The notes under the pieces: generated by a model | Databases searched by the model: none | What the model was told of the DNA's origin: nothing | Seen by the model: only the letters and a program-made list of their open reading frames with translations | Translations under genes and position numbers: made by a program | From: Verrucomicrobiales bacterium | GTDB taxonomy: Bacteria; Verrucomicrobiota; Verrucomicrobiia; Verrucomicrobiales; DEV007 | NCBI GenBank assembly: GCA_023253615.1 | Contig: JALRFZ010000299.1 | Location: 1 to 18,803 of the forward strand | Length of the DNA stretch: 18,803 nucleotides | Direction of reading: 5' to 3' | Shown: positions 207 through 11,881 of the stretch, piece by piece | How the letters are laid out: the number at the start of each line of letters is the position of its first letter | Position numbering within the stretch: position 1 is the stretch's first letter

Positions 207-243
207 CGCGGCGACTCCGCCCTTGCGCGAAAAGCCCGCCGCG
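207..243. other. Stem-loop just after the obg stop codon
   Basis: CGCGGCG at 207-213 pairs perfectly with CGCCGCG at 237-243 around a 23-base loop. It begins two bases after the GTPase stop codon. There is no T tract after it, so it is not a standard intrinsic terminator; it may protect the mRNA 3' end or separate the gene from the cimA leader. Confidence 0.35.
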
Positions 244-267
244 GCTAACTTCCCGCCGACTTCCGGC

Positions 268-327
268 ATGGACCGCCTCCCCCAGAGCTCCATTCTTATT
301 CGCATCGCGATCCTCATTATCGGCTGA
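268..327 (+). CDS. Probable Ile-rich leader peptide of cimA (attenuator peptide)
   Basis: A 19-codon ORF reads MDRLPQSSILIRIAILIIG and then TGA. In the ten codons 292-321 six are Ile and two are Leu, directly before the stop. It lies 102 bases upstream of the citramalate synthase start, and a GC-rich hairpin with a T6 tract follows at once. Ile/Leu/Val-rich leader peptides followed by a terminator are the hallmark of ribosome-mediated attenuation of branched-chain amino acid genes, and isoleucine is the end product of the citramalate pathway. There is no obvious Shine-Dalgarno sequence, but neither has cimA. An odd point is that the hairpin's 5' arm starts in the last sense codon and includes the stop codon, tighter than in enterobacterial ilv leaders, so the switching logic is not textbook. 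The function is inferred. Confidence 0.6.
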   Translation: MDRLPQSSILIRIAILIIG

Positions 328-359
328 CCCGCCGGGTGATTGCGAGTCGGTCCTTTTTT
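322..359 (+). terminator. Candidate attenuator terminator in the cimA leader
   Basis: GGCTGACCCGC (322-332) pairs with GCGAGTCGGTC (342-352). The stem is 11 positions with two G-T wobbles and one C-A mismatch, the loop is nine bases, and C plus T6 (354-359) follows. Two competing pairings exist. GGGTGAT (334-340) is perfectly complementary to ATCACCC at 386-392, and GGACCG (270-275) to CGGTCC (348-353). Either would disrupt the terminator, so a switch is plausible. Confidence 0.55.
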
Positions 360-429
360 CCAACTGCCGGAACGAGCCGAGTCGGGATCACCCCTCCCCC
401 GCCCCGCTGTTTTTTCGACTCCCTTTCCC

Positions 430-2001
430 ATGAGCAAGCACCCCGAAGTGAAACTGTATGACACGACCCTGCGCGACGGCACCCAGGGCGAAGGCGTGAA
501 CTTCAGCTCGCTCGACAAGATCCGCATCGCCAGGGAGCTCGACGCCTTCGGCATGCACTACATCGAGGGGGGCTGGCCGGGGTCGAATCCGAAGGATGTC
601 TCCTTCTTCGAACAGGCCGCCGATCTGGAATGGAAAAACGCCCGCATCGCCGCCTTCGGCAGCACCCGCCGCAAGGGCATCGCGGTGGAGGACGACGGCC
701 AGGTCCGCACCCTCCTCGAGGCCAGGACGCCCGTCATCACCTTCTTCGGCAAGAGCTGGCGCCTCCACGTCACCGAGATCCTCGGCACGACGGAGGAGGA
801 AAACCAGGCCATGATCCGCGACACGACCCGCTATCTGAAAGAACACGGTCGCGAGGTGGTCTATGATGCCGAGCACTTCTTCGACGGATACAAGGACGCC
901 CCCGAGCACGCCCTCGCCACTCTCGCGGCCGCCAAAGAAGGCGGCGCCGACTGGCTCGTGCTCTGCGACACAAACGGCGGCACGATGCCCCACGAGGTCG
1001 CGGAGATTACCGAAGTGGTCATGAAGACCCTCGGCATCCCCGTCGGCATCCATACCCACGACGACACCGGCGTGGCCGTGGCCAATGCCCTCGCCTCCAT
1101 CCTCGCCGGGGCGACACAGGTGCAGGGCACGATGAACGGCTACGGCGAACGGGTCGGGAATTGCAACCTCACCACCGTGATCCCGAATCTCCAGTTGAAG
1201 ATGGACCGCCCCGTCGTGAGCGATCTCTCGCGGCTCACCCACCTGTCCCACTTCGTCGACGATCTCGCCAACAACGCCCACAACATCCGCGCCCCCTACG
1301 TGGGCTCGACCGCTTTCGCGCACAAGGGCGGCATGCACGTGAACGCCGTGCAGAAGGTCGCCCACAGCTTCGAGCACATCGCTCCGGCCACCGTGGGGAA
1401 CCGCCAGCGCATCCTCGTCTCCGAGCTCTCGGGCCAGTCCAACGTGCTCATGAAGGCGGAGGAACTCGGACTGAAGGTGGAAAAAGGCAGCCCCGAGGCC
1501 CTCGAGATCCTCAAGAGCCTGAAGGAACTCGAAGAGCAAGGCTATGAGTTCGAGGCGGCCGAGGCCAGCTTCGAGCTCCTCATCCGCCAGCATCAGAAGA
1601 CCTACCAGCCGCTTTTCGACCTCAAGGAATACCATTGCACCTTCCGCCGGGATGGAGTCCGGGATTACCAGACCTGCTCCGCCACCGTGAAGCTCGTCGT
1701 GAACGGCGTCGAGGAATACCGCGTCGCCGAAGGCGATGGTCCCGTCAACGCCCTCGACGGCGCCCTCCGCAAGGCCCTCCGCTCCGCCTACCCGCACATC
1801 GACGAGATGGTGCTCGAGGATTACAAGGTCCGCATCATCGACAGCCACATGGGCACCGCGGCGAAGACGCGCGTCCTCATTCTCAGCTCGGCCAATCACG
1901 AGACCTGGGGTACCGTCGGCGTCAGCTACAACATCATCGAAGCGAGCTGGCGCGCCCTCGTCGATTCGGTCGAGTATTTCCTGACGAAACGCCGCGATTG
2001 A
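430..2001 (+). CDS. cimA: Citramalate synthase
   Basis: 523 residues. Condenses acetyl-CoA and pyruvate to (R)-citramalate, the first step of the threonine-independent isoleucine route in the cytoplasm. Visible signatures are LYDTTLRDGTQGEG (residues 9-22, metal and substrate site of the DRE-TIM metallolyases), HTHDDTG (208-214, metal-binding His pair) and GTMNGYGERVGNCNL (233-247). The C-terminal ~150 residues (TCSATVKLVVNG to the end) match the LeuA-type allosteric dimer domain. The sequence IEGGWPGSNPKD near residue 45 is typical of CimA rather than of 2-isopropylmalate synthase. I chose ATG 430 because the catalytic TIM barrel begins right after it; the frame stays open upstream to a TTG at 340, but that part crosses the leader hairpin and T tract. 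The Ile-rich leader upstream agrees with an isoleucine biosynthetic role. It converges on the M23 peptidase gene with an 18-base gap. Confidence 0.93.
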   Translation: MSKHPEVKLYDTTLRDGTQGEGVNFSSLDKIRIARELDAFGMHYIEGGWPGSNPKDVSFFEQAADLEWKNARIAAFGSTRRKGIAVEDDGQVRTLLEARTPVITFFGKSWRLHVTEILGTTEEENQAMIRDTTRYLKEHGREVVYDAEHFFDGYKDAPEHALATLAAAKEGGADWLVLCDTNGGTMPHEVAEITEVVMKTLGIPVGIHTHDDTGVAVANALASILAGATQVQGTMNGYGERVGNCNLTTVIPNLQLKMDRPVVSDLSRLTHLSHFVDDLANNAHNIRAPYVGSTAFAHKGGMHVNAVQKVAHSFEHIAPATVGNRQRILVSELSGQSNVLMKAEELGLKVEKGSPEALEILKSLKELEEQGYEFEAAEASFELLIRQHQKTYQPLFDLKEYHCTFRRDGVRDYQTCSATVKLVVNGVEEYRVAEGDGPVNALDGALRKALRSAYPHIDEMVLEDYKVRIIDSHMGTAAKTRVLILSSANHETWGTVGVSYNIIEASWRALVDSVEYFLTKRRD

Positions 2002-4621: not shown

Positions 4622-5551
4622 TCAACCCGCGAGTCCCGCCCGCATCGCCTCGACCGGGGCCGGTTGGTTGAACCAGAATTCAAAGGCGAGCGCCCCCTGC
4701 CACAACAACATTCCCAGACCGTTCGCCGCCTTCGCCCCTTCCTCCTCGGCCTCCGCCATGAGGCGGGTGCGGGCCGGCGCATACACCATGTCGTAGACGA
4801 GATGATGGGGCTGGATGAGCCGGCGCGGCAACACCTCCTGGTCGGTCCGCTTCATCCCCAGCGAGGTCGCGTTGATGATCAGGTCGATCTGTCCGAGCTC
4901 GCGCTCCATCGCACGCTCTTCCCAAGGGATCGCGACGAGACGATCGGCCGGTCCCTCGAGCCGATCGGGATCGTGGATGACCTCGCGCAACTCCGCGGCC
5001 AGCTCGCGCGCTTTCTCCACGGTGCGGTTCACGAGCACGAGACGTTCGCAGTGATCCATCGCGCATTGCACGGCGGCACCGCGCCCGGCACCGCCTCCGG
5101 CGCCAACGATCATGATGCGCAGATCGCGGAGATCCATCGAAAACGCCTCGCGCACCGCGCGGCGCAGCCCCGGCGCATCCGTGTTGTGCCCGATGAGACT
5201 GCCGCCTTCGATCGCCACGGTATTCACCGCACCGACACGACGGGCCGTCTCGCTCATGTCATCGACCGCCTCGAACACCGCGCTCTTGTGGGGAATGGTG
5301 ACGTTGAATCCGACGAAGCCGGCTTCCTTCATGCCCGCGATGCCCTCGGCGAGCTCCTCGGGACGCAGGTGGAGCCTCACGTAACTCGCCTCGATCCCCG
5401 CGGCGCGCAGAGCCGGATTGTGCATCTGCGGCGAGCGGGAATGAGCCACCGGATCACCGATCACGGCGAGACGGGCTGGGAACCCGAGCGAACGCGTCGC
5501 TTCCTTCCAGTTCCCCAGATCGGCGAGAGTGTAGACTTCCGGTTCGCTCAT
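4622..5551 (-). CDS. aroE: Shikimate dehydrogenase
   Basis: 309 residues. Reduces 3-dehydroshikimate to shikimate with NADPH in chorismate synthesis. All the expected residues are present: HSRSPQMHN with substrate serines Ser38 and Ser40, NVTIPHK with catalytic Lys89, NTDAPG with Asp125, the nucleotide-binding loop GAGGGAGRG (150-158), NRTVEK (Arg176, Lys180, NADP preference), NATSLGM, VYDMVYAP and GLGMLLWQGALAFEFW with Gln285. It has an N-terminal extension of about 20 residues before the usual start of the fold (ARLAVIGDP). ATG 5551 is supported by GGAAG about 11 bases upstream. It is the canonical one of two AroE-type proteins in the window. It follows dhaL on the same strand but across a 154-base spacer with a large inverted repeat, so independent transcription is possible (TAAGAT about 15 bases before the start could be a -10). 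Confidence 0.93.
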   Translation of the reverse strand: MSEPEVYTLADLGNWKEATRSLGFPARLAVIGDPVAHSRSPQMHNPALRAAGIEASYVRLHLRPEELAEGIAGMKEAGFVGFNVTIPHKSAVFEAVDDMSETARRVGAVNTVAIEGGSLIGHNTDAPGLRRAVREAFSMDLRDLRIMIVGAGGGAGRGAAVQCAMDHCERLVLVNRTVEKARELAAELREVIHDPDRLEGPADRLVAIPWEERAMERELGQIDLIINATSLGMKRTDQEVLPRRLIQPHHLVYDMVYAPARTRLMAEAEEEGAKAANGLGMLLWQGALAFEFWFNQPAPVEAMRAGLAG

Positions 5552-10844: not shown

Positions 10845-10962
10845 CGCCGGAAGGATGGACCAAATGAGGCGGGGGGGAAAAGGGAAAATTTCGCCATGGC
10901 GGCGCAAGTCTCTCCTGATCGTCGGCCCGGGATTCGTGCCCAAGACCTCGTGTGAAGAAATC

Positions 10963-10991
10963 CTTGCCCTCCCCGCCCGCTTCCCTACACT
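10963..10991 (+). promoter_or_regulatory. Candidate promoter of the divergent AroE homologue (leaderless)
   Basis: TTGCCC (10964-10969, four of six to the -35) is 16 bases before TACACT (10986-10991). ATG 11000 follows after eight bases, placing the expected transcript start at or next to the start codon. The -10-like hexamer and its distance to the ATG repeat the arrangement found upstream of 7609. Confidence 0.42.
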
Positions 10992-10999
10992 CCGCCGTC

Positions 11000-11881
11000 A
11001 TGGCGAAGGAATTGAATTTCAAACAGGAACTGGTGGGTTGTTTTGGTTTTCCCGTGGCGGAAAATCCGACCCAGGCGATGATCGAGCCGGCCTTCCGGGC
11101 GATGGGGCTCGACTGGCGCTACCTCACCCTCGAGGTGCGGCCCGATGATCTCGCCGCCGCCGTCGCCGGAGCCCGCGCCTTCGGTTTCCGCGGATTCAAC
11201 TGCACGATCCCCCACAAGGTGGCGGTGATCCAGCACCTCGACGGACTCGGCGAATCCGCCTCGCTCATGGGCGCGGTCAACTGCGTGGTGAACCGCGACG
11301 GGCGTTTCATCGGCGAGAACACGGATGGCAAAGGATTCGTCTCCAGCTTCCGCGAACTGGCCGACCCGGACGGAAAATCGCTCGTCCTTCTCGGCGCGGG
11401 AGGCGCGGCACGCGCCATCGGTGTGGAGATGGCGTTGGCGGGATGCTCGAGCATCACCCTGGTGAACCGCGATGAAACCCGTGGCCGCGAACTCGAGGCA
11501 CTTTTCTCCGGACCGCTGCGCGAGGCGGTGAAGGCGTCCGGTCGCGATCTCTCGGTGACCTTCGTGCCCTGGCACGGCGATTTCCGCGTTCCCGAAGGAA
11601 CCGAAATCGTGGTCAATGCGACCTCGATCGGTCTTTTCCCCGATGTCGAGGCGCGCATCCCTCTCGAGATGGACTCGGTCACACCCGACATGATCGTGGC
11701 CGACGTCATTCCGAATCCCCCCATCACCCGCCTCGTCGAGGAGGCCCGTCGGAAGGGATGTCGTGTCATTGATGGACTCGGCATGCTCGTCGCCCAGGGC
11801 GTCATCGGCATCGAATATTGGACCGGCCGCACGCCCGATGCGGGCGTGATGCGGCGGGGTCTCGAGGAGGTCTTTGGATAA
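11000..11881 (+). CDS. Divergent shikimate dehydrogenase-like (AroE superfamily) oxidoreductase
   Basis: 293 residues with the full AroE fold: NCTIPHK with catalytic Lys73, NTDGKGF with Asp109, dinucleotide loop LGAGGAARA (131-139), NRDETR (156-161), NATSIGL and DGLGMLVAQGVIGIEYWTG with Gln266. The substrate side differs from true AroE. The two shikimate-binding serines of SRSPQMHN are replaced in VAENPTQAM (Asn22, Thr24), and the tyrosine of the V-Y-x-P segment is missing (VADVIPNPP). The cofactor loop has Asp158 where NADP-type AroE has Thr. Catalysis is thus conserved but the substrate, and perhaps the cofactor, may not be. A canonical aroE lies 5.5 kb away, so this copy is free to do something else, for example act on quinate or another polyol acid. 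It is followed by the Rpn-like gene after 20 bases on the same strand. Confidence 0.85.
   Translation: MAKELNFKQELVGCFGFPVAENPTQAMIEPAFRAMGLDWRYLTLEVRPDDLAAAVAGARAFGFRGFNCTIPHKVAVIQHLDGLGESASLMGAVNCVVNRDGRFIGENTDGKGFVSSFRELADPDGKSLVLLGAGGAARAIGVEMALAGCSSITLVNRDETRGRELEALFSGPLREAVKASGRDLSVTFVPWHGDFRVPEGTEIVVNATSIGLFPDVEARIPLEMDSVTPDMIVADVIPNPPITRLVEEARRKGCRVIDGLGMLVAQGVIGIEYWTGRTPDAGVMRRGLEEVFG

Follow-up and report, generated by a model that had tools for sequence, protein, structure and literature searches.

The window, by which we mean the whole 18,803-nucleotide stretch of DNA that was analysed, carries a leader rich in isoleucine codons upstream of cimA. Judged by comparison across genomes, this leader is conserved and dedicated to cimA, and it is accompanied by a probable two-hairpin switch; together they would represent a known type of attenuation in an altered form. 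We estimate at about 0.7 the probability that the element is an isoleucine-responsive, ribosome-mediated attenuator of cimA, of which we infer the stalling step, the direction of the response and the output. The gene itself encodes the entry enzyme of the threonine-independent route to isoleucine. The features discussed below, all on the + strand, are as follows.

223..251, +: probable promoter (TTGCGC 223-228, 17 nt spacer, TAACTT 246-251); TTGC is kept in 23 of 30 aligned rows
268..327, +: leader ORF, translation MDRLPQSSILIRIAILIIG*, recognised by sequence and conservation
292..321, +: regulatory codons (Ile at 292, 298, 304, 310, 316 and 319; Leu at 295 and 313)
305..314, +: 5' arm of hairpin H1, within the Ile codons (fold, pair counts)
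321..334, +: apical part of H1 (CGGC 321-324 with GCCG 331-334), stop codon in the loop (fold, pair counts of helix 3)
335..345, +: 3' arm of H1 (fold, pair counts)
334..351, +: region 2, the 5' arm of hairpin H2, overlapping the 3' arm of H1 (fold, pair counts)
354..359, +: T6 within the H2 loop, tail of a terminator candidate (sequence, scans); possibly a pause site or a subclade-local terminator
376..393, +: region 3, the 3' arm of H2 (fold, pair counts)
394..429, +: C-rich, G-poor stretch (C 0.53, G 0.11), jointly with 355-393 a candidate Rho loading site
430..2001, +: cimA, (R)-citramalate synthase (TIGR00977, 736.1 bits, cut-off 450)

The leader ORF has 19 codons, starts with ATG, ends with TGA at 325-327 and lies inside a gap of about 225 nt upstream of cimA. 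Of the ten codons from 292 to 321 (I L I R I A I L I I), six specify Ile and two Leu; Gly and the stop follow. An earlier note on this DNA had described this ORF, had named the downstream gene as a citramalate synthase and had proposed a probable attenuator. The ORF stands at the coordinates it gave, the TIGR00977 score bears out the gene, and the proposal gains from the conservation of the ORF upstream of cimA and from the competing helices described below. A strict sigma-70 scan found no promoter. Positions 1-205 hold a frame on the strand of cimA which, by eye, resembles the C-terminus of an Obg-type GTPase. Since this frame runs on the same strand, cimA might also be transcribed from upstream, as is suggested by the related locus L010. 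In L010, the leader and H1 are gone and region 3 is retained. A frame beginning with TTG at 340 stays in phase with cimA through 2001 (553 codons); in L013, the corresponding TTG frame stops before cimA.

Conservation was assessed with a fixed leader rule (ATG start, 8-32 amino acids, at least four Ile per 12 codons, within 300 nt upstream of cimA). Of 114 genomes, 101 had the gene, including that of the window, and upstream regions from 90 of these 101 were inspected (30 loci and 60 further stretches). On the forward strand, 46 of 65 same-family loci, a set that includes the near-identical pair L001/L003, contained an Ile-rich ORF, whereas 100 shuffled sets of 65 gave a mean of 1.3 and a maximum of 5, and the reverse strand gave 8 of 65. 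This is in line with the view of the earlier note that the Ile bias is unlikely to be chance. Two related families (f4 and f5) had the ORF in 9 of 13 loci, against 0 on the reverse strand and 0.04 in shuffles. When L, V, T, S, R, A or G took the place of Ile in the rule, 0 to 7 of the 65 loci passed. Nineteen same-family loci failed the rule, and seven of these (L017, L035, L043, L045, L049, L053 and L055) have a leader by eye. Within the window's genus, six of 30 loci are without a leader: L010, already mentioned, and L023, L025, L027, L028 and L030, from which the whole element is absent. Indels in the aligned leader ORF have lengths divisible by three, and mean pairwise differences at codon positions 1, 2 and 3 are 0.232, 0.326 and 0.395 (last 12 codons, 16 sequences), a merely mild excess at third positions. 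By these comparisons, the Ile-rich leader ORF is conserved beyond chance.

Two mutually exclusive hairpins, H1 and H2, recur in this region, with region 2 common to both. Pairs in each helix were counted in 28 aligned loci (alignment A2) with 500 shuffles each. In H1, 87.6% of cells are paired against 83.3 +/- 0.6 in shuffles, and 12 cells show double changes (reached in 0 of 500 shuffles); helix 3 is paired in 79.5%, with changes on both sides in three of its four pairs. In H2, the corresponding values are 91.2% against 89.8 +/- 0.4, and 7 double-change cells (1 of 500). Pairing in H1 and H2 thus exceeds shuffles on these cell-based measures, the weaker kind because the shuffles ignore relatedness; neither hairpin stands out on two stricter ones, namely the number of pairs with double changes (H1: 4, 48 of 500; H2: 3, 134 of 500) and of further pair types (H1: 14, 65 of 500; H2: 12, 106 of 500). 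Sliding the H1 pairing by -3 gave 5 pairs with double changes. RNAalifold returned a weak H2-type consensus (-4.88 kcal/mol, double change in 1 of 9 pairs). Folding independent of alignment, carried out on 31 loci hand-picked across genera of f1, f4 and f5, gave a mean z of -1.85 for the fold around the stop, i.e. H1 (Stouffer 10.3; z above 0 in 4 of 31), and of -0.59 for the fold after the stop, which contains H2 (Stouffer 3.3; z above 0 in 12 of 31). The leader stop is bridged by six or more pairs in 28 of the 31 loci and overlaps the apical loop in 22. Three loci (L029, L036 and L041) keep the H1-like shape with different letters. A likeness of GGTGAT/ATCACC to a Shine-Dalgarno/anti-Shine-Dalgarno pair was considered and dropped, as the letters differ in other genera.

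From this arrangement, the following model can be proposed. Under shortage of Ile-tRNA, the ribosome would stall on the leader Ile codons, which make the 5' arm of H1. The stalled ribosome would block H1, so that region 2 could pair with region 3 as H2 and cimA would be expressed. With enough isoleucine, the ribosome would reach the stop codon within H1 and cover the 5' half of region 2, preventing H2; after its release H1 would reform, region 3 and the C-rich stretch would be left single-stranded, and transcription would stop before cimA. In the window, the H2 segment (330-395) folds at -31.6 kcal/mol and H1 at -18.9. H2 outweighs H1 in the free RNA, and repression would therefore require a kinetic trap or a ribosome positioned at the stop.

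The geometry had earlier been judged opposite to the textbook logic. This impression arises from taking the hairpin at 322-352 as the switch; with H1 and H2 the textbook logic returns, because a ribosome halted at the Ile codons should disrupt H1 and allow H2 to form. As for the two alternative pairings named at that time, 334-340 with 386-392 is part of the longer helix 334-351/376-393, i.e. H2, but 270-275 with 348-353, present in the window, has all six pairs in just 9 of 30 aligned loci and was rejected as a conserved pairing.

Two marks of attenuation were found here: end-product codons in a short ORF upstream of the gene, and mutually exclusive helices, one of which overlaps the regulatory codons. 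The conserved intrinsic terminator that classically lies between leader and gene was not found in the window's genus. The hairpin at 322-352 (-13.1 kcal/mol), followed by T6 at 354-359, does exist as the earlier note described, and it may be that this hairpin, or H1 itself in relatives, ends transcription together with the T tract, H2 having a modulating role only, possibly within a single subclade. A permissive scan lists the hairpin at -12.9, a stricter scan of 150-460 lists nothing, and a T tract with at least six T in eight positions is kept in 17 of 30 rows (exactly five in six of the other 13). Across the alignment, however, 77.7% of its cells are paired against 77.3 +/- 0.8 (234 of 500 shuffles), a separate count gave 174 of 240 against 175.3 +/- 2.2, and the covariation score falls below the shuffle mean. 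Alignment of relatives, suggested previously as a check, confirmed the Ile codons, but compensatory support for this stem is limited to 8 double-change cells (3 of 500). Only 4 of 24 leader-bearing loci (L001, L003, L004 and L006), including that of the window, had 322-352 as their best local hairpin ahead of the T tract in the permissive scan. Other loci with a match at the tract mostly show H1 plus one or more closing pairs, or else another fold, and in most H1-type matches several unpaired bases separate H1 from the tract. A terminator-like match anywhere between leader and ATG occurs in 21 of the 24 loci, and none was found there in L014, L020 and L026. Moreover, H2 presumably could not control a terminator at the T tract, because RNA polymerase would pass the tract before region 3 exists. 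We therefore rejected 322-352/T6 as a conserved terminator, the general role once claimed for it, and consider termination of this intrinsic kind an unlikely explanation of the switch; since 322-352 is the local hairpin in the four loci named, it may act as a terminator local to the window's subclade. The distance of 8 nt from the end of H1 to T6 would suit a hairpin-stabilised pause, as in the his and trp leaders.

For the output step we prefer Rho-dependent termination, a tentative choice made on the basis of base composition and of the rho-like genes in the genome. From region 3 to the ATG, loci of the same genus average C 0.41 and G 0.15 (21 loci). In the 70 nt before the ATG, C/G is 0.30/0.17 in other leader-bearing genera of the family (27 loci) and 0.37/0.11 in f4 (12 loci). 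Controls gave 0.20/0.18 (ilvB of 11 relatives), 0.27/0.26 (nine window genes), 0.34/0.30 (the leaderless genus g3, 4 loci) and 0.26/0.27 (69 class or phylum cimA upstreams). Family f3, which is mostly leaderless, likewise has more C than G (0.38/0.21, 8 loci), and genus g15 is not C-rich by eye. The C-rich, G-poor stretch before cimA thus suggests a role of Rho, as a correlative indication. The window's genome has two rho-like loci, G000:C541 (L270; 418.5 bits) and G000:C368 (L271; 295.9 and 177.1 bits in two pieces), all scores lying below the family cut-off of 509.45. Slightly more doubtful than Rho alone is the whole picture, in which regulatory codons and leader stop would be parts of one hairpin in competition with a second, downstream one, the switch would gate access of Rho and not an intrinsic terminator, and related lineages would use terminator-based Ile attenuators on cimA.

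The switch could instead act on translation of cimA, with free region 3, or H2, masking or opening the cimA start. Region 3 is indeed complementary to the stretch before the ATG or to codons 3-5 in some loci, but its pairing with downstream sequence is no better than in shuffles (21 loci; mean z -0.29, Stouffer 1.3) and its distance to the ATG varies from 29 to 148 nt, which makes this alternative improbable. Still less probable is a reading in which region 3 would find many short region-4 partners within the C-rich stretch, forming a terminator hairpin without a U tract. Region 3 contains CGGG, C is abundant downstream and the best duplex reaches -22.1 kcal/mol (L011); however, duplexes in the 21 loci stay at the level of dinucleotide-preserving shuffles, which cannot exclude selection on composition itself, and a region-4 partner was rejected.

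To return to the attenuator and its target, a covariance model of the leader built on the H2 structure (R1) was searched over 95 genomes. It matched 30, once per genome, and every match was directly upstream of cimA on the same strand. The training set accounts for 26 of these 30 genomes, and G014 is nearly identical to the window; outside the training genera there were three matches (G037, 5.7e-9; G051, 8.2e-5; G047, 0.0019). R1 gave no match in 12 same-family genomes that bear a leader by reading (G036, G038, G039, G042-G046, G048, G049, G055 and G056), nor in any f4 genome searched, and its reach is for this reason confined to near kin. On this distribution, the leader element is dedicated to cimA. 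Rfam gave 0 matches at the gathering score across the window and 0 with E up to 1 in 200-500; T-box, riboswitch and other known RNA families were rejected, as no Rfam family model matched the leader. A single Ile-rich frame would be weak evidence given the reverse-strand yield of 8 in 65, but with 46 of 65 loci in the family, 9 of 13 in the others and one R1 match per genome, always at cimA, a chance frame beside an unrelated structure is hardly credible.

Leaders of this kind were also detected in other lineages. Family f9, possibly Opitutaceae-like, was represented by 11 loci; in two of them (L145 and L146) cimA is preceded by both an Ile leader and a terminator of about -18 kcal/mol, and in a third, L150, a terminator is present and a leader was not seen. 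In L210, whose record is labelled Patescibacteria, an Ile leader occurs together with an inverted repeat that has a T run (by eye only). L145, L146 and L210 thus look like classical Ile attenuators of cimA outside the window's family. A loose leader rule was passed by 16 of 69 class or phylum loci. By reading, L095 and L096 (f4), L137, L146, L152 and L156 are leader-like, as is L145, missed by the rule; the remaining passing loci were rejected as coding ends or TTG frames. Among loci from named records, 19 of 80 passed a looser rule, and L161-L165, L168 and L210 were accepted as leaders. L194 (Luteolibacter) passed but reads as a gene end and was rejected, and L190 (Haloferula) and L197 (Luteolibacter) failed this rule. 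No leader was found upstream of cimA in L088-L090 (f2, which we guess to be Akkermansia-like). Different Ile leaders occur in L152, L156 (f14) and L137 (f13), where the stops lie, by eye, in short inverted repeats (CCCTCA..TGAGGG; GGGCTGTAAGCCC).

The ilv, leu and thr attenuators of Proteobacteria combine a short ORF containing runs of end-product codons with competing hairpins and a biosynthetic gene downstream. The cimA leader shares all three, and differs in having a hairpin around the leader stop, no conserved 3:4 intrinsic terminator, cimA as its target and a host in Verrucomicrobiota. In the tna system, TnaC senses free tryptophan via the nascent peptide, whereas the cimA leader is proposed to sense codon starvation, with a putative role of Rho. 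In the E. coli tna operon, which PMC1262725 names, leader translation decides Rho-dependent termination. In mycobacterial cys operons, Cys leader peptides have their regulatory codons close to the stop, an obvious terminator is lacking and the spacer has polyY motifs; the authors propose Rho as one possibility and found no conserved hairpins able to serve as terminators (PMC1262725). Regulatory codons close to the stop, the lack of an obvious terminator and such spacer motifs are common to both, while amino acid, gene and phylum differ and, in the cimA case, two competing helices recur. In the LEU element before leuA of Actinobacteria, a pseudoknot, the base stem pairs Leu codons with the leuA Shine-Dalgarno box (PMC1262725). 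There, too, the RNA structure involves the regulatory codons of a leader ORF; those of the cimA leader would pair across the leader stop, and pairing with the start site was not found. A 2010 survey added Firmicutes to the phyla with leader-peptide systems; as far as its authors knew, earlier demonstrations were confined to Proteobacteria and Actinobacteria (PMC2965389). In searches of the openly licensed literature, none of the papers listed dealt, by title or opening of the abstract, with cimA attenuation or with amino-acid leader peptides in Verrucomicrobiota. If our reading is correct, attenuation by Ile-codon leaders would extend to this phylum and to cimA, and the natural series of loci with terminator present, terminator absent and leader lost could indicate how attenuators change their output with the sensor unchanged.

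Other genes of the pathway were surveyed in 28 genomes. A leuA gene (TIGR00973) was found in two of them, and ilvB in 26, the window's own genome being without it. Of the 26 ilvB loci, 24 were inspected; two of these, L245 and L246, consisted of coding or N sequence and could not be used, and none of the others had a convincing leader. Between the leader region and cimA, a motif resembling TRACCCTGTTGA occurs in several genomes of the window's genus (L012-L018, L021-L023 and L025), often twice and about 22 nt apart, L023 and L025 being leaderless. The motif is also found upstream of ilvB in L242, L251 and L255, there as an inverted repeat AACAGGGTTAGGTC..GACCTAACCCTGTT; it may be an operator, a dispersed repeat or a terminator of the upstream gene. 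Finally, the window contains two shikimate-dehydrogenase-like genes, one at 4622-5551 on the - strand (TIGR00507) and one at 10952-11881 on the + strand, recognised by its look only.
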